Source: Spirosoma endbachense
GTDB taxonomy: Bacteria; Bacteroidota; Bacteroidia; Cytophagales; Spirosomataceae
Direction: 5' to 3'
Assembly: GCF_010233585.1 (NCBI RefSeq)
Contig: NZ_CP045997.1
Location: 4,369,332-4,433,331, forward strand
DNA: 64,000 bases
Shown: positions 40,406 through 63,428 of the stretch, piece after piece
How positions within the stretch are numbered: position 1 is the stretch's first letter
Layout of the letters: every line of letters begins with the position of its first letter
Notes under the pieces: generated by a model
Told to the model about the DNA's origin: nothing
What the model saw: only the letters and a program-made list of their open reading frames with translations
Databases searched by the model: none
Translations under genes and position numbers: made by a program

Positions 40406-40497
40406 GGACTTTTGCAAAACCCCGTGCCACCGCAGCCGCGGACGGTGGTTTGTATGCTCATCATTAGTAACCGTGGCACGGGGTTTTGCAAAAGTCC
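40406..40497. repeat. Nested hairpin with GTGCCAC element at its tip (long form)
   Basis: 25-bp perfect arms (40406-40430 and 40473-40497) enclose 42 nt. The outer arm GGACTTTTGCAAAACC is unique, and the inner CCGTGCCAC/GTGGCACGG plus interior CGCAGCCG..GTGGTTTGT..TTAGTAACC are homologous to the hairpin at 63323-63428. The interior CGGTGG can also pair with CCACCG of the left arm. A small CTGGGG/CCCCAG hairpin precedes it at 40385-40400. Confidence 0.85.
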
Positions 40498-40507
40498 CGA
40501 TTGAGTG

Positions 40508-40547
40508 AAATTCAGCGGATATTTACGGCACTTTATCCGCTGAATTT
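40508..40547. repeat. 14-bp inverted repeat upstream of alkA
   Basis: AAATTCAGCGGATA at 40508-40521 pairs with 40534-40547 around a 12-nt loop. It sits 41 bases before the AlkA start codon, directly after the nested hairpin. It could be an operator, a leader fold or another terminator arm. Confidence 0.5.
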
Positions 40548-40588
40548 ACACCAAAAATGGGTAACTTAGTCGGCACAATTATTCATTC

Positions 40589-41218
40589 ATGCAGCCCGCT
40601 ACAGCCCTCATTTCTCCCCTGGATCATCTTGCTCAGGACGCCGTCATGGCCCGTTTGATACAGGAAACACCCTCACCAAAAATCTTCAATGACTACGCCG
40701 GTGATGTCTATCTGGCCCTGCTCGAAAGCATCGTTTCCCAACAGATTTCGGTGAAGGCAGCCGATGCCATTTTTTCCCGATTCCGGCAACTGTTCGCCGA
40801 CAGTTACCCCGACCCCAACGAGTTGCTTCTGAAGTCAACCGACGAGTTGCGAAGCGCCGGTTTGTCGTTCCAGAAAATCAAGTACCTGCAAAGTGTTGCC
40901 GGGTTTTCGCTGGCCAATCCAATGGACCGGGCTCATCTAGATCCGATGACGGACGAAGAAATCGTGCAATACCTGCTTCCGATTAAAGGAGTTGGCCGCT
41001 GGACGGTTGAGATGCTGCTTATGTTCGTGCTGGATCGTCCTGACGTTTTCCCGATCGACGATCTGGTCATTCGTCAGCGGATGTTGCTGGCGTATCCAGA
41101 GCAAACCAATGGACTTACGGGTAAAGCACTCTACAAAGTCCTGCATCAGATTGCCGACCCCTGGAGACCCTATCGCACAACAGCTAGTCGGTATTTATGG
41201 CGCTGGAAGCCGCTCTAA
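40589..41218 (+). CDS. alkA: DNA-3-methyladenine glycosylase II (HhH-GPD)
   Basis: Base-excision repair glycosylase that removes alkylated purines. It has a helix-hairpin-helix LLPIKGVGRWTVEM (about 129-142) and the catalytic aspartate in FPIDDLVIR (D157/D158, aligning with D238 of E. coli AlkA). It has no N-terminal beta domain and no iron-sulfur cluster, so at 209 aa it is the short form common outside enterobacteria. It converges on DUF4403 with only 15 bases between the stops and no hairpin. Confidence 0.9.
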   Translation: MQPATALISPLDHLAQDAVMARLIQETPSPKIFNDYAGDVYLALLESIVSQQISVKAADAIFSRFRQLFADSYPDPNELLLKSTDELRSAGLSFQKIKYLQSVAGFSLANPMDRAHLDPMTDEEIVQYLLPIKGVGRWTVEMLLMFVLDRPDVFPIDDLVIRQRMLLAYPEQTNGLTGKALYKVLHQIADPWRPYRTTASRYLWRWKPL

Positions 41219-41233
41219 GCGACAATTGTAGCG

Positions 41234-42622
41234 CTATAACTTTTTCACTCTCACGGCCACTTTCGACTCTACTTTAATGAGAACCTGAACGCCGTCGGGT
41301 CGAACCACAACACGCTGCGGCACCAATCGGAACGAATCGATATTCAGTGTTGTCTTTCGCCCGGCTCCACCGCGGGCAAACGCCGTTTCAATCTTTTCGG
41401 GTAGTTCAGAAATCTGATGCCGTAAGGGAATAACCATCACGGATTGAAGTGAATCACGAAAATGGTCGTGCAGTAACCAGTCGGCGGTAGCAAACAGGCG
41501 CTCCTTGGTATCGACGTCAAAATCCAGCGATTTGATTTCCAGCGTGTTGTTTAATGTATCGTAGCTAGGCTGCCCATGAAAGTATAAAGTGCCATTGACA
41601 GCACCAGTCACTTCTGTTTTCACAATCAACGAGCGTCCTCCTCCATAAACGGTAGCATTCTTAATTTTCACTTTTCCACCCGCCAGCTTGATCTTTTGTT
41701 CATCCAACGCTTTGGCTAACACCCGGTTAGCATCTTCAAAGGGAATAAAAGCTCTCACCTCCAGACGCGATGCTTCCGGTGTTTTTGCTCGTCTTAGTAG
41801 ACGCGGAAGCCGTTCAAGCTCCGTAACGATTGGTTTGGGGCCTACTTTTGTATCGACCCGAAATGCAATTTGCAGTGGAACCGTAATGCGTTTTTCATCC
41901 CCAAAAACAGGGGCGGCCGCAATACTGAATGGTTTAGGAATAATCCAGATTTCTTCAGGCTTTTTAGCGATGCGCAATGGCTTCTGGATATCGCGCCAAA
42001 CTTTTCTTACATGACGATCCAGCCGTAATTCAGTATGCACGGCCTTATCGATCGCGGCTTCTATTTCAGCTTTCCGTTTATCAAGAATACTTTCGGCCAG
42101 TTTAGTGACGCCAATTTTTACCCCTAACATCTGAACCGTTGGCCGATGAATCCAGTGGTAGTTTTCAAACCTCGACCGGGTTGCCAATCGCCAGTTGGAA
42201 CCAATAGAAAGAGGGCTCACAAAATTAACCGCCAAGGCACAAAGCGGACGCCGTTTCCGAATCTTGCGCAGCCCAATCGGATTGGTGTACCACACTTGCA
42301 GGGGAGCCGAGAAAGAAACCTTTCGGTTAGCATATTGAATACGAACTGGGCCTGTTCGCTCGACGCGAATGTGCCAGGCTTCGCCTTTCTTTCCTTCAAA
42401 GGTTTCTTCAGGAACCAGCACGACACCCAGCGATTTATTGATCTTCCGTTCAAGATCCGCGATCTTAAACGTTATATCGCCTGCCACATACGATATTGGG
42501 TCCGGGATAGCCGGCTCAAAATCCTGCGCTGCCGGCGGCTTTGACCGGACACGATTACAACTTACGGAAGCCAGAAGGGCCGCAAATACTATAAAAAATC
42601 CGATGATACGTTGAGTGTTCAC
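41234..42622 (-). CDS. DUF4403 family lipoprotein
   Basis: 462 aa. A signal peptide with a lipobox cysteine at residue 22 (SVSCNR) precedes an extended, strand-rich body with repeated segments such as ISYVAGDITFKIADLERKINKSLG and VPLQIAFRVDTKV, characteristic of DUF4403. The repeats look like tandem lipid-binding (BPI/SMP-type) modules, but no function is established. It is monocistronic and upstream of convergent alkA. A near-match to the -7 box precedes it on the minus strand (CAACAAAAACTAT in + orientation). Confidence 0.82.
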   Translation of the reverse strand: MNTQRIIGFFIVFAALLASVSCNRVRSKPPAAQDFEPAIPDPISYVAGDITFKIADLERKINKSLGVVLVPEETFEGKKGEAWHIRVERTGPVRIQYANRKVSFSAPLQVWYTNPIGLRKIRKRRPLCALAVNFVSPLSIGSNWRLATRSRFENYHWIHRPTVQMLGVKIGVTKLAESILDKRKAEIEAAIDKAVHTELRLDRHVRKVWRDIQKPLRIAKKPEEIWIIPKPFSIAAAPVFGDEKRITVPLQIAFRVDTKVGPKPIVTELERLPRLLRRAKTPEASRLEVRAFIPFEDANRVLAKALDEQKIKLAGGKVKIKNATVYGGGRSLIVKTEVTGAVNGTLYFHGQPSYDTLNNTLEIKSLDFDVDTKERLFATADWLLHDHFRDSLQSVMVIPLRHQISELPEKIETAFARGGAGRKTTLNIDSFRLVPQRVVVRPDGVQVLIKVESKVAVRVKKL

Positions 42623-42672
42623 TGCAACAAAAACTATCGGATCAGGAAAATGTTAATTAAGTAAACGGATAT

Positions 42673-42828
42673 TCATTTCGCGGTAGTTATCGCCGACGTT
42701 TTTGCGTCGGTTTCACAACCGCATCCTTTGCCACAGCCTGCCTGCTTTTTGAAGAAACTTCGGTAGGCCCGATTACCCATATACCCCACGGCAAAAGCAA
42801 AGATCAGAAAGATGATGAACTCCTGCAT
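42673..42828 (-). CDS. FeoB-associated Cys-rich membrane protein
   Basis: A short gene of 51 codons: MQEFIIFLIFAFAVGYMGNR forms a single membrane helix, RSFFKKQ is a basic juxtamembrane stretch, and GCGKGCGC is a cysteine cluster. This is the standard plan of FeoB-associated Cys-rich proteins, thought to help ferrous iron transport or bind metal. AGGAG occurs within the first codons rather than upstream. No feoA or feoB lies nearby, so the protein is orphaned or serves another metal system. Confidence 0.82.
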   Translation of the reverse strand: MQEFIIFLIFAFAVGYMGNRAYRSFFKKQAGCGKGCGCETDAKTSAITTAK

Positions 42829-42921
42829 GATTTGATTTTCTATCGGTTAGCTATTTTCGGTTGGATGCTTACGTCTGAAGTCCAAAACCGGAGTGCCAAC
42901 GGTCAATTGCCCAACATTTTT

Positions 42922-43464
42922 TCATACCCAACCGTTCCGAACGGCCAGTTGATAAATGTGCTGATAGTGATGTTCGCCGTGCCACGCATAGATTCCCATT
43001 ACCTCCGATATGGGAAAAGAACGCTGACTTCCAGGATGGAAATACGTGCGCTGCCGTTGATCTTCAGTAAGCGATTTCAGTACTGTTACCCAGCGCAGAT
43101 GTAAATTACATAGGATTACCAGTGATGGGGCAACATCAAGTGTATAGTCAGCTAGTTTAGCCCAATCGCCTTCCTCGTAGGGTGAAATGGTTGGATTGTT
43201 TTCCGTAAGAGCCAGTTTAACCCGCACATACGCATTAATATGGCTGTCAACGACGTGGTGTACGACCTGCCGAACAGTCCAGCCATCGGGGCGGTAGGGC
43301 GTATCAAGGCGATCATCGCCCCACCTGCCTACGAGTTCGGTCAGTTTCCTGGGCATCCCGGCAATAACCGCGATGTGTTCGTGATTCTGCTCAGTTGTAA
43401 AAATACTCCCATAAGCAAAATCGCCTATGGGGTAACGGAGTTTATATAGGTCTTGCTCCTGCAT
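42922..43464 (-). CDS. YfiT-type bacillithiol transferase (DinB superfamily)
   Basis: 180-aa four-helix DinB-fold metalloenzyme: LYKLRYPIGDF at the start, GWTVRQVVHHVVDSH with one metal His, and IYAWHGEHHYQHIYQL with two more. In Firmicutes the BstA/YfiT proteins conjugate bacillithiol to electrophiles. The sequence implies a bacillithiol-using cell, which fits Bacteroidota of this group. It is the upstream neighbour of the small Cys-rich gene on the same strand. Confidence 0.88.
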   Translation of the reverse strand: MQEQDLYKLRYPIGDFAYGSIFTTEQNHEHIAVIAGMPRKLTELVGRWGDDRLDTPYRPDGWTVRQVVHHVVDSHINAYVRVKLALTENNPTISPYEEGDWAKLADYTLDVAPSLVILCNLHLRWVTVLKSLTEDQRQRTYFHPGSQRSFPISEVMGIYAWHGEHHYQHIYQLAVRNGWV

Positions 43465-43539
43465 AGTCTGTAACTTATTCGATTTAGGGTTTACTTGATT
43501 TGGCGTTTAGCTTGCTGTACTCGATAAACCGGAAACCAG

Positions 43540-44364
43540 TTATTGCCAGTATTCCTGTATCGCTTTTAGTAATTCCGGCTGCATGCCAGACCCCGCAATG
43601 ACATCGCCCCGGAACAGGAATGCATCACCACCGTCAAAATCAGTGACAATTCCCCCCGCTTCGTGCACGAGCAGTACGCCCGCTGCCATATCCCAGGAGT
43701 GGAGATTGTATTCATAAAAAGCCTCGAATCGCCCGCAGGCCACATAAGCCAGATCGATGGCTGCTGAGCCCAACCGACGCAGTCCGTGCGTTTGCTTCAT
43801 CAACGACTCCAGAATCTGAAGGTACTTCGGCATCTTGTCGAAGGTATAATACGGAAAACCCGTTGCAATCAGGCTCTCACCCAGTTGAGTTGCCGGAGAA
43901 ACCGAAATTTTAGTACCATTGCAGTAGGCTCCTCCCCCTTTCCAGGCCGAAAAACATTCGTCACGGTTAGGATCATAGACAACACCGGCAAGGGGTGTAC
44001 TGCCCTGAGCCAGTCCGATACTGACCGAAAACACGGGTAGATCATGGATAAAATTGGCCGTACCATCGAGCGGATCGATAATCCAGTTGAGCGCAGTCGG
44101 GTCAGCCTCCTGACCAGTGGTTCCCTCTTCCGTAATAAATCCGGCTTGCGGCAACAACTGACTCAGGCGAACAACCAGTTGTTTTTCCGTTTCTTTATCG
44201 ACATAGGATACTAAATTATTCAAGCCTTTGTATTCAATGGCTTCTCGCTGAAATTTGCTTCGCTCCTGAAGCAGAAATTCACCGGCATCGGTGGCAATTG
44301 TACAAATGTCGCGGGTGATGGCGGCTAAATCGAGGGAAGATTGGGCTGAAACGTTAGTGGTCAT
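43540..44364 (-). CDS. Inositol monophosphatase family protein
   Basis: 274-aa Mg-dependent sugar phosphatase fold. Metal-site motifs are ITEEG (E79/E80), IIDPLDGTANF (about 96-105) and SWDMAAG near 223. Substrates of bacterial members include inositol phosphate, 3'-phosphoadenosine 5'-phosphate and fructose bisphosphate, and the sequence does not decide between them. It is divergent from threonine aldolase with about 97 bases between the starts. Confidence 0.9.
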   Translation of the reverse strand: MTTNVSAQSSLDLAAITRDICTIATDAGEFLLQERSKFQREAIEYKGLNNLVSYVDKETEKQLVVRLSQLLPQAGFITEEGTTGQEADPTALNWIIDPLDGTANFIHDLPVFSVSIGLAQGSTPLAGVVYDPNRDECFSAWKGGGAYCNGTKISVSPATQLGESLIATGFPYYTFDKMPKYLQILESLMKQTHGLRRLGSAAIDLAYVACGRFEAFYEYNLHSWDMAAGVLLVHEAGGIVTDFDGGDAFLFRGDVIAGSGMQPELLKAIQEYWQ

Positions 44365-44461
44365 TCGTTAGATAGGCCGATTTTGAAAGGCCAAGATATA
44401 AAAAAGCGGAAACAAGGGCTGTCAGGTTGCCCGTAATTCCATTCTGTGCGACCTTTGTTTT

Positions 44462-45490
44462 ATGACGATTGACCTGCGTAGCGATACAATTACTCAACCC
44501 ACGCCCGCCATGCGCGAGGCTATGTTTACGGCCCAACTGGGCGACGATGTTCTCGGCGATGATCCTACGGTCAATGCCCTCGAAGCAAAAGCGGCCGCTA
44601 TGTTCGGCATGGAAGCGGCTTTGTTCTGTGCCTCCGGTACGATGACGAACCAGCTGGCGATACGCACTCACACCCGCCCCGGCGACGATGTCATCTGCGA
44701 TTACCTGTCGCACGTGTATCAGTACGAAGGAGGTGGTATTTCGGTGAATGCACTGGCGTCTGCCAGTCTGGCCCACGGCGAACGCGGTAAGCTCACTCCT
44801 GATCTTATCCGCGATTACATTTACAGCCCATCAGATTCGCACAAACCGCTGTCACGGTTGGTCGTACTCGAAAATACGGTGAATAAAGGCGGGGGGTGTT
44901 ACTATACCGTTCCCGAAATTGCGGCCATCCGGCATGTCTGTGACGAACACGGCTTACTCCTTCATCTCGATGGGGCACGGCTTTTTAATGCCCTGGTCGA
45001 AACGGGCGAACCGACTGAAGCATACGGTCAGTTGTTCGACTCGATCAGTATCTGTTTATCGAAAGGTTTAGGTTGTCCGGTAGGGTCGCTCCTGCTTGGC
45101 AAAGCAGCTATGGTTCGCCAGGCCCGGCGCTACCGTAAGCTGATGGGGGGCGGCTGGCGACAGGCGGGGTTCCTGGCCGCAGCGGGCATCTACGCACTTG
45201 ATCACCATATCGACCGGTTGAAAATTGATCATGCCCGCGCCCGAAAAATTGGCGCTATTCTCGAAAAGCTGCCCGAAGTCGAAGAAATTCTCCCGATTGA
45301 CACGAACATCGTGATTTTTAGGCTCCCGGCAAACCTCTTAGCCGCCGATTACGTTGCACAATTAGACTCCAAAGGCATTCGTGGCGTTCAGTTTGGCAAG
45401 CACCTGGTGCGCTTTGTCACGCATCTGGATTTGACAGATGAGATGATCACGGAAATGGAGAAAAAGATGACGCTGGATAGCAATCGTTAG
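44462..45490 (+). CDS. ltaE: Low-specificity L-threonine aldolase
   Basis: PLP enzyme that cleaves L-threonine or allo-threonine to glycine and acetaldehyde. The opening [19 protein letters not shown] is the family signature, D170 in HLDGARLFN binds the PLP ring nitrogen and K201 in [12 protein letters not shown] forms the Schiff base. 342 aa is standard. A CCTTTG stretch ends a few bases before the ATG, so the transcript leader may be very short. Confidence 0.93.
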
Positions 45491-45577
45491 GTATGGGATA
45501 CTGACCATTGGAATGAACGTCCCAAATCCAGTTTCCAATGGCTATTCGCTACTGTCCAACAGCCCAACACGCTAAAA

Positions 45578-47176
45578 ATGCATATACAAACCAGAACACT
45601 GCAAAAAGAAGATTATCACGACCTCAAAGAAACCATGATTGAGGTCTATAGTGGTATTGGGGGTGATTACTGGCCAAAAAGCTCGATCACGAAACTGCTG
45701 TCTATTTTTCCGGAAGGGCAGTTCTGCGTCGAAGTAGATGGTAAAGTGGTAGCCAGTGCCCTGGCAATTCGGGTTAAATACGATCAGTTTGGCGATAATC
45801 ACACATACTACGAAATAACGGGGGGATACACATTCAAAACGCACAGCGATGAGGGCGATTACCTCTATGGCATTGAGGTTTTTGTGCACCCTGATTACCG
45901 CGACCTTCGGCTCGGTCGTCGACTATATGACGCCCGCAAGGAACTCTGCGAACAACTGAATCTGAAAGGTATTCTGGCAGGAGGACGCATTCCGAATTAC
46001 AACAAATTTGCGGATGACCTGACTCCGCGTGAATACATCGCCAAAGTAAAGCAAAAAGAAATTTATGACCCGACGCTGACCTTTCAGCTCTCCAACGATT
46101 TCCACGTCCGGAAAGTCCTTCGTGGCTACCTGCCCGGCGATACCGAGTCGAAGGAATACGCTACGTTGCTGGAATGGATCAACATCTATTACGTTGTTGA
46201 GAAGGACAAAAAACCGCATACCGATTCAATCATTCGGCTGGGTGTGATCCAGTGGCAGATGCGGCTGTTCAAAAATCTGGATTCATTTCTGGATCAGATC
46301 GAGTTCTTCGTCAATGCGGTCAGTGATTACCGGGCTGATTTCATGGTACTGCCGGAGTTCTTCAACACGCCCTTAATGGCCGATTTCAACGATCTGCCAG
46401 AGCCGGTAGCTATTCGCAAACTGGCCGATTTTACGGAGCCTGTGCGCGAAAAACTCTGTGAACTGGCTATTTCCTACAATGTCAATATTGTGGGAGGAAG
46501 CATGCCCCTCGTAGACGATGATGGGAAGTTGTATAATGTGGCCTACCTCTGCCGTCGCGATGGCTCCTGGGAAGAATACAGGAAAATTCACATTACACCC
46601 AATGAAGTAAGGCATTACGGCATGGTGGGTGGTTATGAAATTCGGGCATTCGACACCGACTGTGGTAAAATTGGTATGCTGATCTGTTACGATGTCGAAT
46701 TCCCCGAACTCGGCCGGATTCTGGCTCAGCAGGGCATGCAGATTCTGTTTGTACCGTTCCTGACCGATACCCAGAATGGCTACTCCCGAGTGCGACACTG
46801 CGCTCAGGCACGCGCCATCGAGAATGAATGTTATGTGGCGATATCGGGATGCGTCGGGAATCTCCCTAAAGTCCATAACATGGATATCAATTACGCACAG
46901 TCGGCCGTATTTACGCCTTCCGACTTTCAGTTCCCGACCAACGCGGTGAAGGCCGAAGCAACGACCAATACCGAGATGGTGCTCATTGCCGACGTAGACC
47001 TGAGTCTGCTGAAAGAGCTTCATGAACATGGCTCCGTACAGGTACTCAAAGACCGCCGGACAGACCTTTATGACGTGACGCTGAAAAAAGCCGCCAGAAA
47101 GGCCCTTAAGCAGAAGAAAGCATCGTCGGATAACGATCCTGAAGAAGTTGCTCCAATCATCACAGTTGCAGAATGA
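45578..47176 (+). CDS. GNAT acetyltransferase fused to nitrilase-type C-N hydrolase
   Basis: One 532-aa polypeptide. An N-terminal GNAT domain (about 1-170) contains YGIEVFVHPDYRDLRLGRRLYDAR, the acetyl-CoA-binding turn. After a linker, a C-N hydrolase domain (about 215-505) carries the complete Glu-Lys-Cys triad: E260 in VLPEFFNTP, K336 in YRKIHITP and C370 in LICYDVEFPE. The tail is lysine-rich. Fusion implies that amide hydrolysis and acetyl transfer act on one metabolite, but the substrate is unknown. It is monocistronic and followed by a bidirectional hairpin. Confidence 0.92.
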   Translation: MHIQTRTLQKEDYHDLKETMIEVYSGIGGDYWPKSSITKLLSIFPEGQFCVEVDGKVVASALAIRVKYDQFGDNHTYYEITGGYTFKTHSDEGDYLYGIEVFVHPDYRDLRLGRRLYDARKELCEQLNLKGILAGGRIPNYNKFADDLTPREYIAKVKQKEIYDPTLTFQLSNDFHVRKVLRGYLPGDTESKEYATLLEWINIYYVVEKDKKPHTDSIIRLGVIQWQMRLFKNLDSFLDQIEFFVNAVSDYRADFMVLPEFFNTPLMADFNDLPEPVAIRKLADFTEPVREKLCELAISYNVNIVGGSMPLVDDDGKLYNVAYLCRRDGSWEEYRKIHITPNEVRHYGMVGGYEIRAFDTDCGKIGMLICYDVEFPELGRILAQQGMQILFVPFLTDTQNGYSRVRHCAQARAIENECYVAISGCVGNLPKVHNMDINYAQSAVFTPSDFQFPTNAVKAEATTNTEMVLIADVDLSLLKELHEHGSVQVLKDRRTDLYDVTLKKAARKALKQKKASSDNDPEEVAPIITVAE

Positions 47177-47199
47177 TGCGCTAGGATTTCTTACTGAAT

Positions 47200-47243
47200 A
47201 AAACAGGAAACGCCACTTATAGCAGAGTGGCGTTTCCTGTTTT
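47200..47243. terminator. 18-bp perfect hairpin between convergent genes
   Basis: 47200-47217 pairs exactly with 47226-47243, loop TATAGCAG. A4 and T4 runs at the stem ends suit termination from both sides. It lies between the GNAT-nitrilase and DUF1801 genes. Confidence 0.75.
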
Positions 47244-47266
47244 TAGGGAATCTCAAACGGAGACAT

Positions 47267-47698
47267 TCAATTTTCATTCGTAACCTCGACCCCATATCGT
47301 ATTGCTGCTTCAAGTATGTCGATATTTATATCTTTCAGATTTTTGAATCTAATGCAATACCCGGTTACGCTCGCTTTGCCTATTTCTTTCCCAAACGTTT
47401 GGGCTAAGTATGCCTTATCGTTGATACCGAGGATATAGACAGAGATTCCGGTTTTGTTCGCGCTCAAACCAATTTGAAAAAAATCCCGGATCTTTCCATC
47501 AGCATATTTTATGGTTTGAAATCCGTAGCCTATAGTAGGGTTAGCAACTGTTTTATTTTCGCTGTTTTTACCAGTGTCGAACCATAATTTACAACCTGGT
47601 AAAACTTGAAGGACGAGCCTGTGCAACTCTTCCATATCAATACGTTTGGGTTCAGGTTGGCTGGTAATATACTCGTTGATTTGCTCCTGTTCGTTCAT
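47267..47698 (-). CDS. DUF1801 domain protein
   Basis: 143 aa. The layout QINEYITSQPEPKRIDMEELHRLVLQVLPG, WFDTGKN, PTIGYGFQTIKYADGKIRDFFQIGLSANKTGISVYI and a C-terminal IRFKNLKDINIDILEAAIRYG matches DUF1801. It is more distant from YdhG than the copy at 32903. It appears soluble and cytoplasmic. Function unknown. Confidence 0.75.
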   Translation of the reverse strand: MNEQEQINEYITSQPEPKRIDMEELHRLVLQVLPGCKLWFDTGKNSENKTVANPTIGYGFQTIKYADGKIRDFFQIGLSANKTGISVYILGINDKAYLAQTFGKEIGKASVTGYCIRFKNLKDINIDILEAAIRYGVEVTNEN

Positions 47699-47985
47699 AT
47701 CAACTATTGAATTATGGGTTACTTACTTTGCCTTTTCAAATCTCGTTTATTTTTAGTCATACACTAATTCTTTTCGTTCACCTTTCTTCGAAAGTACTGT
47801 CCTCTTTTATCTGGCTTATCATTCAAATTTCAAATTGATATACCGTCTTTTTTAAATCTTTACAAATATTATTTCAACAATCACAGAAACATCAATATTA
47901 TAAACTCAATATTATCTTTTCAATAAAACGTTAATACTGTATTCATTTTATATAAATTCGACCATAGACCATATCCTATTCAATT
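47699..47985 (+). promoter_or_regulatory. AT-rich leader upstream of the TonB receptor gene
   Basis: These 287 bases are strikingly AT-rich compared with the roughly 50 percent GC around them. A one-mismatch -7 box (TAAATTCG, 47953-47960) lies 26 bases before the ATG at 47986. The region probably contains the receptor promoter and possibly nucleoid-protein sites. Confidence 0.4.
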
Positions 47986-52350: not shown

Positions 52351-52411
52351 TAGGCTTTTTGCTCAGAAGCGTGCCACCGCAACGGCGGCACGCTTCTGAG
52401 CAAAAAGCCTA
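52351..52411. repeat. Nested hairpin with CGTGCC...GGCACG tip (short form)
   Basis: 25-bp perfect arms (52351-52375 and 52387-52411) with an 11-nt centre ACCGCAACGGC that can pair further as CCG/CGG. The core GTGCCACCGCAACGG matches parts of the 63-kb element. It lies between the end of the DoxX gene and the start of DUF819 on the same strand. Confidence 0.8.
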
Positions 52412-54106: not shown

Positions 54107-54137
54107 GATCGATTGACTAGCGTGATAAATCTGGCTG

Positions 54138-54145
54138 CAAAGCTA
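54138..54145 (-). promoter_or_regulatory. Possible -7 box TAGCTTTG for the NTF2-Crp-DoxX operon
   Basis: Exact TAnnTTTG on the minus strand, 31 bases before the ATG at 54106, leaving a leader of about 25 nt. Its place between divergent regulator and target genes supports it. Confidence 0.45.
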
Positions 54146-54202
54146 GGTGCATCAACGGCAGGAAAATTATGAAAAAAGGACTAAGTTTTGTTTGTTTAGG
54201 CC

Positions 54203-55000
54203 ATGAGTAGACAATTTGTAAGCTGTTCCTCAATTATTGACCAGACAACCAGCCCGTTCGTTATCTATCATCAGCAACTGGGTTGTTTTCATTCCGATTG
54301 GCATCAGCATGCCTGGGGCCAACTGATCTATGCCGAAAAGGGTTGTGTCCACCTAACCTGCGTGGGAAAAACCATATTACTTCCTGGCTGGTATGGCGCC
54401 TGGATTCCGGCCGATACGTACCATAAAATCTGGTCGGACAGTGTTCAGCTACACATGCGGGCGATCTGCTTCCCGGTATCGCCTGTCAATAATTCGCTGA
54501 ACAATCAGCTTTCCGTGTTTCCTGTTTCGGCTTTGCTTCGGGAAATGATCCGTTATACCGAAAAATGGAGCCAGAGCGATCAGGAGGAGCTGCCAGTCAA
54601 TACGTTTTTGCAGGCGATTCAGAATCTGCTGCCGGAAGAGATCAAGAAGGCAATACCTGTTTGTTTGCCTTCTACCCAGCATGAGAAGCTAGCTCAGGTC
54701 ATCGACTACCTACAGTTGCATCTGTCCGAAAAAGTCAGCATCCAGCAGATAGCCAGGCATTTTGGGTTATCGGTCCGCACGTTAACCCGGCTATTTACGC
54801 AGCAACTGGGTACTTCCTTTTCGAGCTTCTGCAAAATAGCCCGAATCATGAAAGCATTGGAGTTGATTGAAACGGGTCATGACAACGTTTCGCAATTAGC
54901 CGATCTTGTCGGGTACGAAAGCCTGTCTACCTTTAGCAACAATTTTCTGGAAATTTGCGGCAACCGCCCTTTGCATTTCATTCAGGCAAAAAAACGTTAA
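54203..55000 (+). CDS. AraC-family transcriptional regulator
   Basis: 265 aa. An N-terminal cupin (about 1-130, HSDWHQHAWGQLIYAEKGCVHL) is followed by a two-HTH AraC domain (about 165-262) with VSIQQIARHFGLSVRTLTRLFTQQLGTSFSSF and the second helix in NVSQLADLVGYESLSTFSNNFLEICGNRP. It is divergent from the NTF2-Crp-DoxX operon. The cupin suggests control by a small ligand. A one-mismatch -7 box (TAAGTTTT) lies just upstream. Confidence 0.9.
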   Translation: MSRQFVSCSSIIDQTTSPFVIYHQQLGCFHSDWHQHAWGQLIYAEKGCVHLTCVGKTILLPGWYGAWIPADTYHKIWSDSVQLHMRAICFPVSPVNNSLNNQLSVFPVSALLREMIRYTEKWSQSDQEELPVNTFLQAIQNLLPEEIKKAIPVCLPSTQHEKLAQVIDYLQLHLSEKVSIQQIARHFGLSVRTLTRLFTQQLGTSFSSFCKIARIMKALELIETGHDNVSQLADLVGYESLSTFSNNFLEICGNRPLHFIQAKKR

Positions 55001-55014
55001 TTCCAGCTACTTTT

Positions 55015-56208
55015 TTATTCTCCCGCCATTGGATCGGGGGTTCCATCCGGATCGCCCTGAACAGTGCCGTGCGTTGGCAGATTATTTCCCCGAATAAATA
55101 ATAACCCTGCTACGTGAGGGGCCGCCATCGACGTACCACTCAACGTTGCGTACTTTCCATCTTTATAGGTCGATGTGATCCGTACACCATAGGCGCAGAC
55201 ATCTACGCTGTTGCCAAAATTGGAAAACGAAGCGAACTGGTTCGTCTGACTCATTGCCGATACAGTAAAGACATTGGCATGATTGACACGTGCCGGCGAA
55301 TAATTGTCGCTGTTTTTACTGTCATTGCCAGCAGCAATCGCAAACAGAATACCGGCATTAGCTGCCTTCAGAATGGCGTTTTCCAGCGTAGTCGAAATCC
55401 CCTCACCTCCCAGGCTCATATTGACCACATCGCCTGCCTTGCCGTTTTGCGTCACATAGTTCACCGCCTGAATGATCCCCGATAAACGGCCTTCTCCATC
55501 ATCGTCAAGAACCCGCAGCGCAACCAGACGCGCGCCGGAAGCCACGCCCGTTATACCAACGTTATTGTTCTTCGCACCAATGATCCCGGCAACATGCGTG
55601 CCGTGGCCGTTCTCATCATCGGCCGATGTTTGTCCGCTCACAAATGATCTACTACGCTCCGTATCGACATTCAGATCCGGATGATCCAGATCAATGCCGG
55701 TATCGATAATCCAGGCTGTTTTGGTCGTTTGCAGATCACCACGCCCATAGCCGGTCTGCCGAATGTTCCAGAGCAGTGTCGACGTTGTCTGCACATCCAC
55801 ACAATTGCAAATAGACATGATCCGGTCTTGCTCAATCGACGCTACCGTCGGGTCCAGTCGTACCCGTTCCAGTTCGCTGGTCGTCAGATGGGCCAGAAAA
55901 CTAGTCTGTTCGCCCGATCCCAGCACATCGACCTGAGCATCGGCTACCTGATAGTGAGTCAGGAATTGTTCGGCTGAGGCTTCGGCGGCTGCGATTCGAG
56001 CACCGGGTGCCGTGGGCAGTGATTCTGTCGGCTGATATGTAACAATGTAAGAACCGGCAATTGCCACCCCATTATTCGAAGAAGCTTTAACCAGACAGTC
56101 GGCCGAAAAGCCGGTCGGTTCCAGTGTACTATCAGTCTGGCAACCGAATAAACTAACGCCAACAAGAGCGACATTGATGAGTGTCGCAAACGGGAGTAAA
56201 CGTCGCAT
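55015..56208 (-). CDS. S8 subtilisin-like serine protease, lipoprotein
   Basis: 397 aa. A lipoprotein signal peptide with cysteine at about residue 23 (LFGCQTD) is followed by an I9-type propeptide (about 50-130, SYIVTYQPTE ... TVASIEQDRIM) and a subtilase domain. The triad is D169 (IIDTGIDLDHPD), H202 (NGHGTHVAG) and S359 (SGTSMAAPHVAG). The catalytic domain stops about 35 residues after the serine with THGTVQGDPDGTPDPMAGE, shorter than subtilisin but a recurring ending in Bacteroidota. It would act at the cell surface or periplasm. The cysteines SICNC may form a disulfide. It converges with the AraC gene. Confidence 0.9.
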   Translation of the reverse strand: MRRLLPFATLINVALVGVSLFGCQTDSTLEPTGFSADCLVKASSNNGVAIAGSYIVTYQPTESLPTAPGARIAAAEASAEQFLTHYQVADAQVDVLGSGEQTSFLAHLTTSELERVRLDPTVASIEQDRIMSICNCVDVQTTSTLLWNIRQTGYGRGDLQTTKTAWIIDTGIDLDHPDLNVDTERSRSFVSGQTSADDENGHGTHVAGIIGAKNNNVGITGVASGARLVALRVLDDDGEGRLSGIIQAVNYVTQNGKAGDVVNMSLGGEGISTTLENAILKAANAGILFAIAAGNDSKNSDNYSPARVNHANVFTVSAMSQTNQFASFSNFGNSVDVCAYGVRITSTYKDGKYATLSGTSMAAPHVAGLLFIRGNNLPTHGTVQGDPDGTPDPMAGE

Positions 56209-56344
56209 GAGTCTGTACGAAAGTGAAGAAAGAAGGAAATAATAAAAGCGTACAAATCACTTCATGCTCAGTCGATATTCATTCGTTTAGGTAGATATAC
56301 GCAGAAAACGGAAAAGTCGTTGCGTACCTTGTTGACGCTATCAA

Positions 56345-58111
56345 TTATTTTCCGGAGAGGGGAATAAACACGACCCGACCGGCGGCCGGAAACCGGGTTT
56401 CTGCGATAGGATGGCCATATCGCCGGTAGAATGCCATTGCCTGGTCGGGCGTCAATAAATCGGGATACAGGTTGATGCCAGCGAAATTATTGGTATGCAA
56501 AAACGTATCGAGAAATTGCCAGTCCTGATCTGTAAACGAATAACCGGGCTTTAGAAGTCGAGGCCAGCCATCGCGCAGAAAGGGTTGAATCTGATCGGGA
56601 TGCAATCGCCCGAAATATTGCCCGACACCATTTTTGTCGTAAAACCGGCGGAACGTAAAAACAGCATTTTGCTGGTCGTAATACGGGCAAAGGCCTTCTT
56701 TGGCCCCTACGCCATCGGCTCCAATCGTACAGAATGGCCAGTCGAGAACTGCTATACCAGGCTGTTTCTTCACCACAGCGCAGTATTGAATCAGACTTTC
56801 GGAAGCCAGATTGGCAGGAACAAATAAGCGCATGTGATAACCCGTGAACCACTCCAATCCCATGAGAATGAGCACGAACACGCCAACTGTCCGGGCCGGT
56901 TTCTGTTGTGGCCATTGAACGGGTAATGCCAGCAAACCCAGTAAAACAGGATAAACCAGGCTGGACCGTCCACCATGGCGGTTAAAACTAAACCACGGAA
57001 ATAGTTTTAGCGTGGGCAATAACACCGGATGATAGAGCAGGCACAATACGAGCATACCGACTACTGGCAGCCACAAAGCCACTCGCTGACGGATTTGCCA
57101 CCAGCCAATTCCGGCCAGAACGACTAAATACAAGCCGGGGCTTCCCTGACCATAACTCTCGAAGGTATCATGTAACCACCGTTCGTAGGAAATGGCATAA
57201 CTATGAATACCCAGCAAATGGGGAATGAATAATCGCAAGGGATGCGACCATGCCCGCAATTCGGGAACAATACCAAAATCGAACTCCCAGGCCGTCATAG
57301 CAATCTGCAATGTCAGCGGCAAATACAGCCAGGCGCTTAAAGCGATGAGCATCAGGTAACCCATAAGGCGTACTGACTGGTGGCTCCATTGGTCGCGTAT
57401 ATAGTCCCGGACCAGCGACGGCCATCGACCCGGTTTCCGAAACCGCCGAAAAAGCACCCCGACCAAAACAGGCATCGTCAGTGTTGTTAAGGTCAGCGCA
57501 AATCCTGCCACATAGCCCAACTCCTGCCCCAGAACCTGAAGATGCAGCCATACCCAAAGCAGCCAAAACGAAAGGGGAACAGTCCGCTGATCCAAGACAT
57601 CCAGCAATAGCCGGAATGTCGCCACCATGCACAGAACCGTCCAGTGATCGACACAGACGTTCATGTGCACAGGAAACTTCCAGATTGCATAGAAATTGAA
57701 TACCGATACGATCAGGCCAAAAACAAATGCCTTTACCCGACCAAAACGAGGTTCGATCAGCGCAAACGTCCCAACGGCGGCAACGAGTAAACTATATACG
57801 TAATAGAACTGAAGGAATGGACCTGGCCCGTCAAACAGCCGATAGCACAAGGCGTACCAATAGTCGCGCTCGAACCCCCAGTCCAGAAAAACCTGATTGA
57901 TACCGTACGGGTAAAACGTTTGGGTGTTGAACAGTGTCAGCTGAGGCAGCGGCCAGAGGGTCAGGTTTTTGCTGAAGAAATAACCGACATATTCATATTG
58001 GTCGGTATCGCTTCCGTCGGACAGCGGTAAACTGAAATCACCAACGGCCAGGCTTCCCAGCCCGGCCGTCAGACTAATTAATGCTATATACCAAAGCGTG
58101 TTTTTGCGCAT
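56345..58111 (-). CDS. Large polytopic membrane protein, GT-C-like
   Basis: 588 aa with about ten or eleven hydrophobic segments and a periplasmic C-terminal part from about 420. LPLSDGSDTDQYEY in the first extracytoplasmic loop, with acidic residues after helix 1, resembles the catalytic loop of GT-C glycosyltransferases that use polyprenyl-phosphate sugars. I cannot assign a family. Its ATG follows the stop of the FabH-like gene with no gap, so translation is probably coupled and the two products likely share a pathway, perhaps modification of a lipid or surface glycan. Confidence 0.65.
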   Translation of the reverse strand: MRKNTLWYIALISLTAGLGSLAVGDFSLPLSDGSDTDQYEYVGYFFSKNLTLWPLPQLTLFNTQTFYPYGINQVFLDWGFERDYWYALCYRLFDGPGPFLQFYYVYSLLVAAVGTFALIEPRFGRVKAFVFGLIVSVFNFYAIWKFPVHMNVCVDHWTVLCMVATFRLLLDVLDQRTVPLSFWLLWVWLHLQVLGQELGYVAGFALTLTTLTMPVLVGVLFRRFRKPGRWPSLVRDYIRDQWSHQSVRLMGYLMLIALSAWLYLPLTLQIAMTAWEFDFGIVPELRAWSHPLRLFIPHLLGIHSYAISYERWLHDTFESYGQGSPGLYLVVLAGIGWWQIRQRVALWLPVVGMLVLCLLYHPVLLPTLKLFPWFSFNRHGGRSSLVYPVLLGLLALPVQWPQQKPARTVGVFVLILMGLEWFTGYHMRLFVPANLASESLIQYCAVVKKQPGIAVLDWPFCTIGADGVGAKEGLCPYYDQQNAVFTFRRFYDKNGVGQYFGRLHPDQIQPFLRDGWPRLLKPGYSFTDQDWQFLDTFLHTNNFAGINLYPDLLTPDQAMAFYRRYGHPIAETRFPAAGRVVFIPLSGK

Positions 58112-59158
58112 CTACCACCGAATCAGGGCCGAACCCCACGTAAAGCCACTCCCAAACGCGGCTACGCAAAGTAAAGAACCATCTTCGATTTTTCCTTGCT
58201 CCCAGGCTTCGCATAACGCAATCGGAATGGATGCAGCCGTGGTATTCCCAAATTTATGAATGTTGTTGAACACTTTTTCGTCGGTTAGGCCCAGGCGTTT
58301 CTGAACCAGTTGCGCAATGCGAAGATTAGCCTGGTGCGGTACCAGCAGATCGATGTCCTTCGGCGACAGGTTCATTTCATCCAGCGCTTCCAGGATAACC
58401 TCCGGAAAACGCGTCACCGCATGGCGCAGAACCGTCTGGCCATTCATGTGCGGAATACTGGTATGGTCGTCGTGCAGCGAAATAAACTCTATTTCCTCCT
58501 CCGTAAACTTAAAATGGTCTTTTTCAAAGTAATAACCCGCATGGGCACCCGGATTGAAACACGCCAGTTCTTCGGCGTAGGTTCCATCAGCATGGAGGTG
58601 AGTCGTTAGAATACCCCTCCCAGGCTCATCACAGGGTTGAATGACAGCGGCCCCTGCTCCATCGCCAAACAGGATCGTCACATCACGCCCAGAAGGTGAA
58701 AAGTCCAGATTCCTCGAATGCGTTTCGGCCCCTACCACAAGCACATTTTTAAATTTCCCGGTTTTCACGTATTGGTCGGCAATCGAGAGGGCATAAATAA
58801 AACCCGAGCATTGATTCCGAATGTCCAGCGCGCCCATAGTCTGGTGCGTAATGCCAAGCTCACGCTGAAGCAATACGCCATTGCCAGGGAAATAATAGTC
58901 GGGGCTAAGCGTGGCAAAAATGATAAAATCAACGTCGGAGGGTAAAATACCCGCCCGGTCGATGGCGATGCGGGCAGCTGCGGCTCCCATCGTAGTAGTC
59001 GTTTCGCCATGTTTCTTTCGGTAATGACGTTGCTCGATACCCGTTCGTCCCTGTATCCAGTCTTCGGAAACATTGACCAGCGGTGCCAGCTCAACATTGG
59101 GCACCACCCGATCCGGAACATAATAGCCTAATCCGGCAATTCTCGCATTTTTCATCAT
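58112..59158 (-). CDS. 3-oxoacyl-ACP synthase III (FabH-like)
   Basis: 348 aa condensing enzyme. The nucleophilic C117 lies in [13 protein letters not shown], the histidine in VPHQANLRI and the asparagine in [11 protein letters not shown] complete the thiolase-fold triad. FabH starts fatty-acid elongation with acetyl-CoA, but divergent copies work in specialised lipid or pigment synthesis. Its coupling to a membrane protein rather than to fab genes supports a dedicated role. A second ATG one codon in is possible as the start. Confidence 0.88.
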
Positions 59159-59218
59159 ATGTGTAAACAGACAGTGGGCACTTCTTCATCTCGAACAGCC
59201 AAAACGGTCAAAATTTGG

Positions 59219-59226
59219 TATCTTTG
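59219..59226 (+). promoter_or_regulatory. Possible -7 box TATCTTTG for leuS
   Basis: Exact TAnnTTTG located 32 bases before the leuS ATG at 59259, giving a leader of about 26 nt. No -33 TTG at the usual distance is evident. Confidence 0.45.
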
Positions 59227-59258
59227 TGCATTATTTCGCAGTTATTTTATCCGTTCAT

Positions 59259-62114
59259 ATGGATTACAATCACCGCCAGACCGAACAGAAATGGCAACGG
59301 TTCTGGGACGATAACCATACCTACAAACCAGAAACTCATACGGTTCGTCCGAAGTACTACGTACTCGACATGTTTCCGTATCCATCGGGCGCGGGCCTGC
59401 ACGTTGGGCACCCACTCGGCTACATTGCATCCGACATCGTGTCGCGCTACAAACGGCTGAAAGGCTTTAATGTGCTGCATCCCATGGGTTTCGACTCATT
59501 TGGTCTACCAGCCGAACAGTATGCCATCCAAACAGGACAGCATCCGGCCGTAACGACTGAGCAGAACCTGACCCGCTATATCGAACAACTCAAAAACATC
59601 GGTTTCAGTTATGACTGGACCCGCGAAGTTCGTACGTCCGATCCAGCGTTCTATAAATGGACGCAGTGGATCTTCATGGAGTTGTTCCGCAGTTGGTACA
59701 ACAAGGACACGGACCGGGCCGAACCGATTGAGACCCTGACGGATAAGTTTGCCACCAACGGCACAACTGATGTCAATGCGGTTTGCGACGATGACGTTCC
59801 AACATTCACTGCCGCCGAATGGAATGCCATGTCGACGCGGGAGTCCTACGAGATAACCTTAAAATATCGCCTGACCTATCTGGCGGAAGCCGTTGTAAAC
59901 TGGTGCCCGGCATTAGGTACCGTTCTGGCAAACGACGAAGTAAAAGACGGTGTATCGGAGCGGGGTGGCTACCCGGTCGAGCAGAAGCTGATGCGCCAGT
60001 GGATGATGCGGATCACGGCCTATGCCGATCGATTGCTGACGGGTCTGGACACCATCGACTGGACCGAATCCCTGAAAGAACAGCAACGCAACTGGATCGG
60101 CAAATCAGTCGGGGCCAGTGTAAAATTCCCGGTTCGCTCGAAACAGCGCATTGGTGGCGAAGACGTATCCGTGCCTTCATCCTTCATTGAAGTCTTTACA
60201 ACCCGTGTCGACACGATCTATGGCGTTTCGTTCATGGTGCTGGCTCCGGAGCATGAGTTGGTCGCTGACCTGACCACTCCCCAACAACAGGAAGCCGTTA
60301 AAGCCTATGTAGACGCGGCTAAACTCCGCTCCGAACGTGATCGTATGGCTGACACAAAAGCCGTTTCGGGTGTGTTTACGGGCAGTTATTGCATAAATCC
60401 GCTTAATGGCGAAGAGGTCCCGATCTATCTGGCCGATTATGTGCTGGCTGGTTATGGCACCGGTGCGGTCATGGCCGTTCCGTCGGGTGATCAGCGTGAC
60501 TGGAACTTTGCGACTCATTTCGGATTGCCGATTATCCAGATTCTGGATGCGCAGAAGGACATCGACCAACAGGCTGATAACACAAAAGAAGGCCACTACA
60601 TCAACTCGGGGATCATCAACGGACTGACCTACAAAGAAGCCACTTCCAGGCTGGTTGCCTGGCTGGAAGAACGAGGGCTCGGTCGGGGAAAGATTAATTT
60701 TCGGATGCGCGATGCGGTATTCAGCCGTCAGCGCTACTGGGGTGAACCGGTGCCCATATACTTCAAGGATGGCGGTTCGACGGGTCGATTACCCTATCTG
60801 ATCGACGAAAGCGATTTGCCGTTGGAGTTGCCTGCTGTTGATAAGTACCTGCCTACCGAAACGGGCGAACCACCACTGGGCCGCGCTGAAGGCTGGAAAT
60901 ACAAGGGCGAGTATGACTACGAACTGAGCACGATGCCGGGCTGGGCGGGCTCGTCCTGGTACTGGTATCGCTACATGGACCCGCAGAACGATTCGGTTTT
61001 CGCCAGCAAAGAAGCCATTAATTACTGGCAGAACGTTGATCTTTACATCGGTGGAACCGAACACGCGACTGGCCACCTGCTTTACAGCCGTTTCTGGAAC
61101 AAATTCCTGAAAGACCGTGGCTATGTCCCTCAGGAAGAGCCGTTCAGGAAGCTGATCAACCAGGGCATGATTCAGGGGCGGTCAAACTTTGTGTATCGTT
61201 TGAAAGGTACAGGGGTAGAAGGATCTCCACCCATTTTCATTTCTCTGGGCCAGGTTGGTAATCGCGAGGTTACTCCGTTGCATGTCGATGTAAATATCGT
61301 TGAAAACGATGTGCTCGACATTGACGCATTCAGGAAGTCCCGCCCGGATTTGACCGAGAATGCGGAGTTCATTCTGGAAGAGGATGGTCGCTATCTTGTT
61401 GGCGCAGAGGTTGAAAAGATGTCGAAATCGAAGTTCAACGTCGTCAATCCCGATATGATCGTGGAGAAATACGGCGCTGACGTATTGCGGTTATATGAAA
61501 TGTTCCTCGGCCCGCTGGAGCAGGCTAAACCCTGGAATACCAACGGTATTGACGGTGTATATCGCTTCATCCGCAAGTTCTGGCGGCTATTTTATAAAGA
61601 CAACGCTACCGGAGAAAGTCAATGGATTGTCACCGATGAGCAGCCGACACCCGCTGAGTTGAAAATCCTGCACAAGACAATTCAGAAAGCGGAAAGCGAT
61701 ATAGATGCGTACTCATTCAACACGTCGGTCAGTTCGTTCATGATCTGCGTGAATGAACTGGCAACGTTAAATTGCCACAAACGCGCCATTTTGCAGGATC
61801 TGGTGTTAATTCTATCACCTTATGCTCCCCACATTACGGAGGAGTTATGGGCCGCCTTGGGCAACGAACCGGGAACGATTTCTAAAGCAACGTTCCCAGC
61901 TTTCAACCCAAATTTTCTGGTTGAGGATGCGTTCGAATACCCGATCCAGATCAACGGCAAAGTTCGTACTACGATCAGTTTCGCCATCGACCGAGCGCCG
62001 ACCGAAATCGAACGCGAAGTGCTGGCCGACGAAATCGTCCAGAAATGGCTGGAAGGCAAATCGCCGAAGAAAGTCGTTGTCGTACCGAAACGAATTGTTA
62101 ACGTCGTAATCTAG
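59259..62114 (+). CDS. leuS: Leucyl-tRNA synthetase
   Basis: Class I synthetase of 951 aa from the ATG at 59259. It has HVGHPLGY (HIGH motif, residues 48-55), a CP1 editing insertion with the threonine-rich TTPQQ-like region, the [11 protein letters not shown] block, and KMSKSKFN near residue 720. An insertion of about 65 residues before KMSKS ([20 protein letters not shown]...) is typical of Bacteroidota LeuRS. An upstream in-frame GTG at 59226 overlaps the promoter box and is not used as the start. Confidence 0.96.
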
Positions 62115-62117
62115 ATG

Positions 62118-62176
62118 AAGCGGGGTGATTTCGTAGGTCATAATGGTAAGCTATGACCTACGAAATCACCCCGCTT
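62118..62176. terminator. 25-bp perfect hairpin after leuS
   Basis: 62118-62142 pairs exactly with 62152-62176 around ATGGTAAGC. It starts 4 bases after the leuS stop and faces the convergent LLM oxidoreductase. T4 follows the stem on the + strand. Confidence 0.75.
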
Positions 62177-62289
62177 TTACTGATTCAGGGATTCGGATTT
62201 GATAACCCGAATCCCTTTTTGTTTAGTACCTTCACTCATTGGTGTGCTACGGTTTCTAATAATAGCACCCCAATGAGCGAAAGACCAAT

Positions 62290-63306
62290 TTACAATGCTG
62301 CCAATTTTTTATCCCCTTTGGTCAGTTCATCACGAACCTGTGCCGCAATTTCGACCGAGTGCCGCCGTGCCTGATGATCATAAATTGGTACCGAAATAAT
62401 CAATTCATCCGCTTTGGTCTGTTCAATCAGGTTTGCCAGTCCGCGCTGAACCGTTTCGGGCGAACCAACTGCCGAGCAGCTAAGTACCTGTTCGATACCC
62501 GCCAGCTCATAATCCGGCCAAAGGGCGGTCAGGTCATCAACTGGAGGTTGCATCTGACGGGCTTTCCCGCGACGAATGTGCAGAAACTGTTGTTGAACCG
62601 ATGTGAACAGGCGTTCTGCTTCCTGATCCGTATCAGCCGCAACCACATTCACCGCGACCATTGCATAGGGTTCTTTCAGGTACTCAGATGGTTTAAATCG
62701 CGATCGATATACTTCCAGCGCCCGCATTAACTGCGTTGGTGAGAAATGAGAAGCAAACGCATAGGGCAAACCGAGCATGGCGGCCAGTTGTGCTCCAAAT
62801 AAGCTCGAACCCAAAATCCAGACAGGAATAGCCAGCCCTACGCCCGGTATGGCCTGCACAAACTGATTCGATTCATCGGGTTGAAAATAGTGCATCAATT
62901 CAACAACATCCTGCGGAAACGTATCGACATCAGTAGCCTCACGGCGCAGCGCCCTCGCGGTTACCTGATCAGCACCGGGAGCACGGCCCAATCCGAGATC
63001 GATCCGTCCCGGATAAAGAGACTCCAGCGTACCAAACTGCTCGGCAATCACCAGGGGCGAATGGTTGGGTAACATGATACCGCCCGCTCCTACCCGGATC
63101 GTTGTTGTGCCACCGGCGATATAACCGATAACAACCGAAGTTGCCGCGCTGGCTATTCCCGGCATGTTATGGTGTTCGGCGACCCAGTAGCGATTAAAGC
63201 CCAGTTGCTCGGCATGCAGGGCAAGGTCCAGTGAATTATGCAAAGCCTGCGTAGGTGTGCTACCGGCTACTATGGGTGAAAGATCCAGAATTGAAAAGGG
63301 AATCAT
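62290..63306 (-). CDS. LLM-class flavin-dependent oxidoreductase
   Basis: 338-aa TIM-barrel FMN/F420 enzyme of the luciferase-like group, MsnO8 type: [57 protein letters not shown] at the start, then [37 protein letters not shown]. The substrate is unknown. It is a single minus-strand gene, with the nested GTGCCAC hairpin only 17 bases upstream of its ATG. Confidence 0.9.
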
Positions 63307-63322
63307 ACTTCGTTGATGTTAT

Positions 63323-63428
63323 CAGGGCATTCGCCCGAAGCCGTGCCACCGCAGCCGGTCGCAACGGCGGACCGTGGTTTGTGTATGCGATCTAGTTAAC
63401 CGTGGCACGGCTCCGGGCGAATGCCCTG
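63323..63428. repeat. Nested hairpin with GTGCCAC element at its tip (long form)
   Basis: The outer arms CAGGGCATTCGCCCG (63323-63337) and 63414-63428 pair perfectly. After one mismatch the inner arms AGCCGTGCCAC (63339-63349) and 63402-63412 also pair perfectly. The 52-nt interior aligns with the 40-kb copy: CGCAGCCG, CGGACxGTGGTTTGT, ATGC, TAGT..AACC, with a 10-nt insertion. It lies between the divergent LLM and GDPD genes, so it is not simply a terminator. Confidence 0.85.

Follow-up and report, generated by a model that had tools for sequence, protein, structure and literature searches.

Mobile hairpins with a RAYT-linked palindromic core and concertedly changing arms in Spirosoma endbachense

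Four hairpins with a common palindromic core, GTGCCAC/GTGGCAC, are found in a 64,000-nucleotide (nt) stretch of the Spirosoma endbachense genome (hereafter the window; G000:C1:4369332-4433331, where G000 is the source genome, a single contig of 10,326,072 bases), and we analyzed them together with their relatives in this and other genomes. They occupy window positions 31208..31254, 40406..40497, 52351..52411 and 63323..63428, as reported in the initial annotation, and no strand is assigned to any of them. The sequence CCGTGGCAC occurs four times in the window compared to 0.48 expected, a number that none of 100 shuffles reached, while GTGGCAC alone is weak evidence (12 occurrences compared to 7.0 expected, with 3 of 100 shuffles reaching 12).

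The hairpin at 31 kb lies between convergent genes and is a short-core form: a 25-nt core (31219-31243, GTGCCACGGTTcaaAACCGTGGCAC) is enclosed by 11-nt outer arms, GCTGGGGTGCG, which match no family consensus. Its ortholog is present in the sister genome G001, which is colinear with the window at ~91-93% identity over most of its length. The hairpins at 40 kb (core 40424-40479, arms GGACTTTTGCAAAACCCC) and 63 kb (core 63343-63408, arms CAGGGCATTCGCCCGAAGCC) are long-core copies. They share their interior, as had been noticed before, and each carries a one-sided insert between GTGCCAC and GGTT on the forward strand, 16 nt long at 40431..40446 (CGCAGCCGCGGACGGT) and 26 nt long at 63350..63375 (CGCAGCCGGTCGCAACGGCGGACCGT); both inserts are missing from the G001 orthologs. 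The 63-kb copy is flanked by a 5-bp target duplication, GTTAT, at 63318..63322 on its left and 63429..63433 on its right (forward strand). In the 52-kb copy the core (52371-52391) has collapsed to 21 nt and the arms (TAGGCTTTTTGCTCAGAAGC) are of the long-core type; this copy is missing from G001 and has no clean target duplication. The copies at 52 and 63 kb are indeed near the 5' ends of predicted genes.

Pairing of the arms was 100% over 22 nt at 31 kb and over 25 nt at 40 kb, 97% over 29 nt at 52 kb and 96% over 27 nt at 63 kb, so that the perfect self-complementarity attributed to all four hairpins does not extend to the last two. The outer arms had also been described as unrelated to each other. 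This is correct for the 31-kb copy, but the arms at 40, 52 and 63 kb share a degenerate consensus, YAGGnCTTTCGC...AGCC. These three copies represent a derived palindrome with the consensus arms YAGGnCTTTCGCTTCGAGCC, and their arms are therefore not unrelated.

A search of the 10.3-Mb G000 genome for GTGCCAC-N0-60-GTGGCAC, of the kind proposed in the initial annotation, returned 139 matches compared to 2 for a reversed control, so the family has ~139 copies. They fall into two classes. In the long-core class, which includes the window copies at 40, 52 and 63 kb, the core is ~40 nt (more where inserts are present) and the outer arms mostly fit YAGGnCTTTCGCTTCGAGCC. In the short-core class, to which the 31-kb copy belongs, the 25-nt core is GTGCCACGGTT-N3-AACCGTGGCAC and the arms are mostly locus-specific; short-core copies with long-core-type arms also exist (for example at L063, L065, L143, L146 and L147:3918). 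A strict long-loop form, GTGCCACGGTT-N4-30-AACCGTGGCAC, had 75 copies in G000, 46 in G001, 18 in G034 and 9 each in G032 and G035, with 0-2 copies in the remaining genomes, and was present in 12 of 59 genomes (including G000), all of one genus. The strict short form (N2-3) was found in 10 of the 36 genomes of the genus, with 16 copies in G000 and 22 in G001. Among 63 strict G000 copies compared over 20 arm positions, 62 had distinct left arms, and pairing with the copy's own partner was 92.6% compared to 54.1% with the partners of other copies.

Long-core copies enter intergenic DNA as whole hairpins and leave a 5-bp target duplication. From 170 copies in G000, G001 and some relatives, we used the 80 with a clear AGG/CCT edge. 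Identical 5-mers directly outside YAGG...CCTR were found in 18 of these, compared to 0.55 in shuffled pairings, and when neighboring offsets were included the duplication was present in 19 of 65 long-core copies and in none of 15 short-core copies. An earlier, looser test gave at least 5 matching bases in 23 of 60 copies, compared to ~3.6. Comparison of the sister genomes also revealed orthologous sites without the element, as the initial annotation had proposed to look for: the G001 copy L089:10201 is absent from G000, with ~60 identical bases on each side, and the G000 copy L118:3992 is absent from G001. When the two clean empty stretches (123 and 126 nt) were scanned, no hairpin with arms of at least 8 nt was found. 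The initial annotation had envisaged a small non-coding element that inserts into the tips of existing hairpins. A small non-coding mobile family is borne out by these data. On the other hand, insertion into tips is refuted for the long-core class, as the consensus arms, the duplications and the hairpin-free empty sites together demonstrate that the arms arrive with the element.

The inner inserts are a variable part of the family. Among 108 copies in G000, 18 have one or more units of ~16 nt (CGCAGCCGCGGACGGT and variants) between GTGCCAC and GGTT, one-sided in 17 and two-sided in one; in G001 such units are present in 3 copies out of 50, one-sided in two and two-sided in one. At L225 1286 a one-sided 80-nt insert at the hairpin tip consists of five tandem 16-nt units, and its G000 ortholog has a plain 25-nt core.

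To compare arms between G000 and G001 we started from 58 named comparisons. After subtraction of 4 double-counted pairs, 6 repeats, 3 comparisons in which the first copy failed the arm test (L141, L386 and the 52-kb window copy) and 16 without a recognized partner, 29 shared loci were left. Among the 16, L139 does occur in the partner genome, displaced by a single base, the partners of L385, L387, L388, L389 and L391 are altered, L089:10201 and L118 correspond to the two empty sites described above, and the others are absent or unclear. Counting the arms together with the 7-bp stem of the core, the 29 loci contain 694 stem pairs, of which 611 were unchanged, 72 had changed on both arms such that both species still pair, and 11 had changed on one arm, with the stem limits being set by pairing and thus biased towards paired positions. 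The flanks diverge by 9.4% (192 of 2048 sites), a level at which independent arms would be expected to show ~118 single changes and ~2 compatible double ones. At the 40-kb locus both arms are GCTTCGAGCC in G001 and GCAAAACCCC in G000 while the loop is identical, and at L390/L403 the core itself has changed on both sides (GTGCCAC, GTGACAC). The excess of concerted over single changes comes close to an alternative offered in the initial annotation, that the arms of a single element diverge by gene conversion. We also compared loops (31 rows, 27 distinct loci). At three of the 27 loci the loop was inverted while the orientation of the flanks was kept, the loop of one species matching that of the other better in reverse complement than directly: exactly at L116/L100 (100% vs 69%), at L011/L084 (85% vs 65%) and, less clearly, at L066/L096 (70% vs 57%). 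L022/L091, a pair counted twice, was also flagged as inverted and was excluded as an insert confounds it.

Concerted change is not confined to hairpins with the core. Core-less hairpins with long, perfect and unique arms number 29 in 518 kb of G000, and there are five in the window (184-233, 24004-24058, 32822-32882, 47200-47243 and 62118-62176). Eleven core-less hairpins, a set that leaves out three without a hairpin in the partner genome and one that could not be aligned, showed 8 concerted, no single and 2 other changes with 154 unchanged pairs. The process is therefore not specific to the element, and template switching at replication is a likely cause. Published text describes template switching between inverted repeats as homogenizing the arms and inverting the spacers (PMC8604942) and as able to create and maintain perfect stems (PMC8794818). 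Judging from the mutation pattern and these mechanisms, switches of template inside the hairpin at replication are likely to account for both the homogenization of arms and the inversion of loops seen here. The hairpins resemble the inverted repeats in the text of these two studies in arm homogenization, spacer inversion and multibase compensatory change; unlike in the cases described there, the changes extend across a dispersed family of mobile bacterial hairpins and to ordinary hairpins nearby. The mechanism itself is already known. In the window, the three core-less hairpins with a usable G001 ortholog (24004, 32822 and 47200) had all changed on both arms. Elsewhere, G000 has a core-less hairpin whose 24-nt arms pair perfectly (L136 4521) and which is missing from G001, so that hairpins of this type are gained or lost between sister species.

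Two short cores that lie 686 bp apart in G000 led us to a gene for a REP (repetitive extragenic palindrome)-associated tyrosine transposase (RAYT). Its frame of 221 amino acids (L138:3892-4557) is bracketed by these cores, so that the Y1/RAYT transposase suggested as a search target is present in the genome. The AlphaFold2 model of the protein had a mean predicted local distance difference test score of 83.5, with the part that would be encoded by the left hairpin, residues 1-22, scoring below 50. The best fold match in PDB was 4er8, TnpA-REP with a bound REP hairpin (E 1.4e-07), followed by the TnpA proteins of ISDra2 and IS608 (E >0.001). Alignment of 14 sequences showed the HUH histidines (NHFH in the G000 protein) and the tyrosine of the YIHQNP motif to be invariant. 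Among GTDB representatives, GTGCCACGGTT-N2-26-AACCGTGGCAC matched 104 stretches, and the following results cover 80 loci of these. Spirosoma contributed 26, Niastella 21, Telluribacter 7, a Persicitalea bin 6 and other Bacteroidota 15; the remaining five, from Arthrobacter, Pseudarthrobacter or a planctomycete, have cores of 29-31 nt and may be unrelated. A RAYT-like frame was found within 1 kb of the core at five further loci of the 80 (in S. arboris, Telluribacter, Persicitalea and two metagenome bins), and at the Persicitalea locus L291 there are cores on both sides of it. Linkage, sequence and predicted fold all indicate that the core is the repeat of a Bacteroidota RAYT, and this enzyme would be the one that moves it.

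According to the text of Quentin et al. (2018, PMC6006769), TnpA-Y1 subclass 2.6 of Bacteroidetes is bordered by “atypical secondary structures” that lack GT[AG]G and have copies elsewhere in the genome. On that account, the association between RAYT and repeat was already known in outline. The G000 system is like RAYT/REP systems and subclass 2.6 in its HUH and YIHQNP motifs, its TnpA-REP fold and the placement of the gene between two repeats, and like subclass 2.6 as described in that text in its further genome copies, its Bacteroidota host and the lack of a GT[AG]G foot; the base of the hairpins, where a canonical foot was not found, is locus-specific or YAGG. Where that text gives NH[LIV]H, WQ and YIH[QN]NP for subclass 2.6, the histidine motif of the G000 protein reads NHFH and a W is lacking between its HUH and Y motifs; we therefore did not file the protein under this subclass. 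Unlike the repeats of RAYT/REP systems, the 25-nt core is symmetric, it is set in long locus-specific arms in Spirosoma, and it has a derivative that leaves 5-bp duplications. The published text on Bacteroidetes RAYT/REP that we consulted, figures and supplements aside, describes no palindromic core within locus-specific arms, no derivative with 5-bp duplications and no loop inversion.

The arms of the short core differ between groups of genomes. Outside Spirosoma they are short: among 58 cores of at most 26 nt, eight had arms of at least 12 nt, seven of these from Spirosoma, and five other Spirosoma cores in this set had arms of 4-9 nt. RAYTs of other Spirosoma genomes have the same flanking architecture and a different core, ACGCCRTATCT-N3-AGATAYGGCGT, with 34 copies in G022, 19 in G023, 14 in G014 and 10 in G006. 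We read 19 distinct copies out of these 77. Their arms of 18-37 nt were free of mismatches and mutually unrelated, and they were located -16 to 60 nt from the 3' end of a predicted gene, with none between divergent genes. We fetched 26 orthologous loci from other species and could align 24 of them (six by a single flank): 18 had no hairpin and six had a different hairpin lacking the second core, and the sequences were too diverged to tell which of the two arms is old. A Spirosoma arboris hairpin (L316 2832, ACGCCATATCT) carries the second core, and therefore both core families occur in this genome. Between the sister genomes, a hairpin flanking the RAYT gene lacks its core in G001 and has the same arms (gain and loss could not be told apart), L147 and L225 differ at the tip and keep their arms, and the orthologs at L141 and L145 differ in stem length and share the inner part. 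Nine further short-core G001 copies compared with G000 included no clean fresh insertion; L384 had no G000 counterpart in an alignment that leaves its edges unresolved.

We consider the following explanation of the family likely. The GTGCCACGGTT-N3-AACCGTGGCAC palindrome is, by linkage, sequence and fold, the REP-like repeat of a RAYT, which would move it. In the lineage of this genome, the core has given rise to the longer palindrome with its consensus arms, an 11-nt core arm and a loop of ~18 nt, which inserts between genes as a whole hairpin with a 5-bp target duplication, presumably by means of a DDE transposase acting in trans. After insertion, as observed between G000 and G001, the arms change in sequence but remain complementary, and inversion of the loop can occur, with polymerase template switching within the hairpin at replication as the probable cause. 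Several observations weigh against this explanation. The exact duplication is missing from 61 of the 80 edged copies and also from the window copies at 40 and 52 kb. The ten DDE_Tnp_1 loci examined, the one transposase family searched, included no enzyme that combines matching ends with a 5-bp duplication. A PF01797 search of the whole G000 genome gave no match at the search threshold; the match of the RAYT frame itself to this profile (4.3e-4) is under the gathering score, and its match to NCBIfam REP_Tyr_transpos (NF047646; 7.9e-14) scores 51.8 bits compared to a curated cut-off of 80. In addition, selection on an RNA stem could likewise yield paired changes.

The long-core element is like DDE-moved miniature inverted-repeat transposable elements (MITEs) in being small and non-coding, in its terminal inverted repeats YAGG...CCTR and in its duplication of a fixed length of 5 bp, and unlike them in being one hairpin of which each copy has its own matched arms. 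Similar ends were present at one of the ten DDE_Tnp_1 loci, L277, where two adjacent insertion sequences of the ISAs1 family (119-2625; NF033564 profile, 2.2e-40; flanks masked) have ends beginning with CAGGGCTTTC. These resemble YAGGnCTTTC, but the likeness stops after ~10 nt. The ISAs1 family makes target duplications of 8-10 bp, and the 5-bp duplications of the element do not agree with an ISAs1-derived MITE. In 1.37 Mb of G000/G001 DNA there were nine matches to the element end without GTGCCAC nearby, none of which resembles the end of a parent element, and the list of open reading frames showed no evident transposase frame in ~1 kb of extra DNA beside the L038 copy.

For the short-core class two other origins of the arms have to be weighed. 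One possibility, which we regard as rather doubtful, is the part of the initial proposal that survives for this class: the 25-nt core inserts into the tips of existing terminator-like hairpins, the RAYT acting on single-stranded hairpin DNA. Core-less hairpins with long, perfect and unique arms are common here (5 in the window and 29 in 518 kb, as above), short-core copies are close behind gene 3' ends (at most 60 nt in all 19 read copies of the second core), one hairpin in G001 has identical arms and no core, and the tip of L147/L225 differs while the arms stay. However, 18 of the 24 alignable orthologous sites in other species have no hairpin, and nearly all copies read outside Spirosoma, where the core is located at gene 3' ends, have arms of 1-8 nt. 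The order of events was not seen, as none of the short-core copies had a clean empty site. A second possibility, which we hold just as tentatively, is that short-core copies make their own arms, with 18-37 nt of one flank being copied in inverted orientation by snap-back synthesis or template switching, at insertion or later. The unrelated, mismatch-free arms of the 19 second-core copies and the absence of most hairpins from orthologous sites favor this explanation, and one template-switch event can create a perfect stem according to the text of PMC8794818. The differing stem lengths with a shared inner part at L141 and L145 also favor it, but either state could be the older, arm loss would explain these two loci as well, and short-core copies outside Spirosoma grew no arms. 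It could be speculated, a little more tentatively still, that the RAYT-linked core builds its own hairpin by priming the inverted copying of 18-37 nt of flank, an “inverted target duplication”, after which template switching keeps the arms matched.

Two further explanations concern the family as a whole or its long-core class. It is very unlikely that the elements are bidirectional terminators only, with stems kept by selection on RNA pairing. Many of them are near gene 3' ends (at most 30 nt in 46 of 106 distances) and their stems pair strongly. However, 20 of 104 intergenic copies are between divergent genes, similar to 79 of 373 other gaps (the tandem and convergent classes being 62 and 22 compared to 224 and 70), and neither the 5-bp duplications, the inverted loops nor the 72 double compared to 11 single changes at 9.4% divergence fit this idea. 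The 84 long-core G000 copies taken separately comprise 47 tandem, 18 convergent and 17 divergent copies and two inside predicted frames. Scarcely more probable is a reading that takes the long-core palindrome for a REPIN whose own RAYT moves it, with the 5-bp duplications arising in some other way. The genome does have an intact RAYT frame, but IS200/IS605-type single-strand transposition is not known to leave a target duplication, which argues against this mode given duplications in 18 of 80 copies compared to 0.55. As in REPINs, to judge from the text of PMC3116915, a single hairpin is made up of two conserved blocks in inverted orientation and the spacer between them, the unit is apparently mobile and stem changes are compensatory. 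Unlike the REPINs described there, which have invariant blocks at both ends, the element has its conserved blocks in the interior and variable outer arms: GTGCCACGGTT is internal, and arm positions 6, 7, 11 and 16 have only 43-52% consensus.

These data provide these Bacteroidota RAYTs with what is probably a defined repeat, a conserved hairpin tip whose stem is locus-specific in Spirosoma, and make the manner in which RAYTs spread their repeats a testable question in a simple system. The family also constitutes a natural, replicated set of bacterial hairpins, so that comparison of sister species allows events of arm copying and of loop inversion to be counted. It further carries a warning that covariation of stem pairs alone is no proof of selection on RNA.

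Other repeats and differences were also observed. A second dispersed inverted repeat, with AGTAGGCAGT / TGCAGTCTTCAGT-like units, occurs in the window at 7540-7618, 27503-27571 and 37100-37178, the last of which is shortened in G001. Around 62113-62323, ~210 nt of G000 are replaced by ~2.5 kb in G001 (L072 7821-10341). Another dispersed long hairpin, TTTTTGTCATTCCGACGACAGGAGGAATCTTC-like, is common to G030, G021 and G032 (L247 1338, L253 315 and L256 1283).

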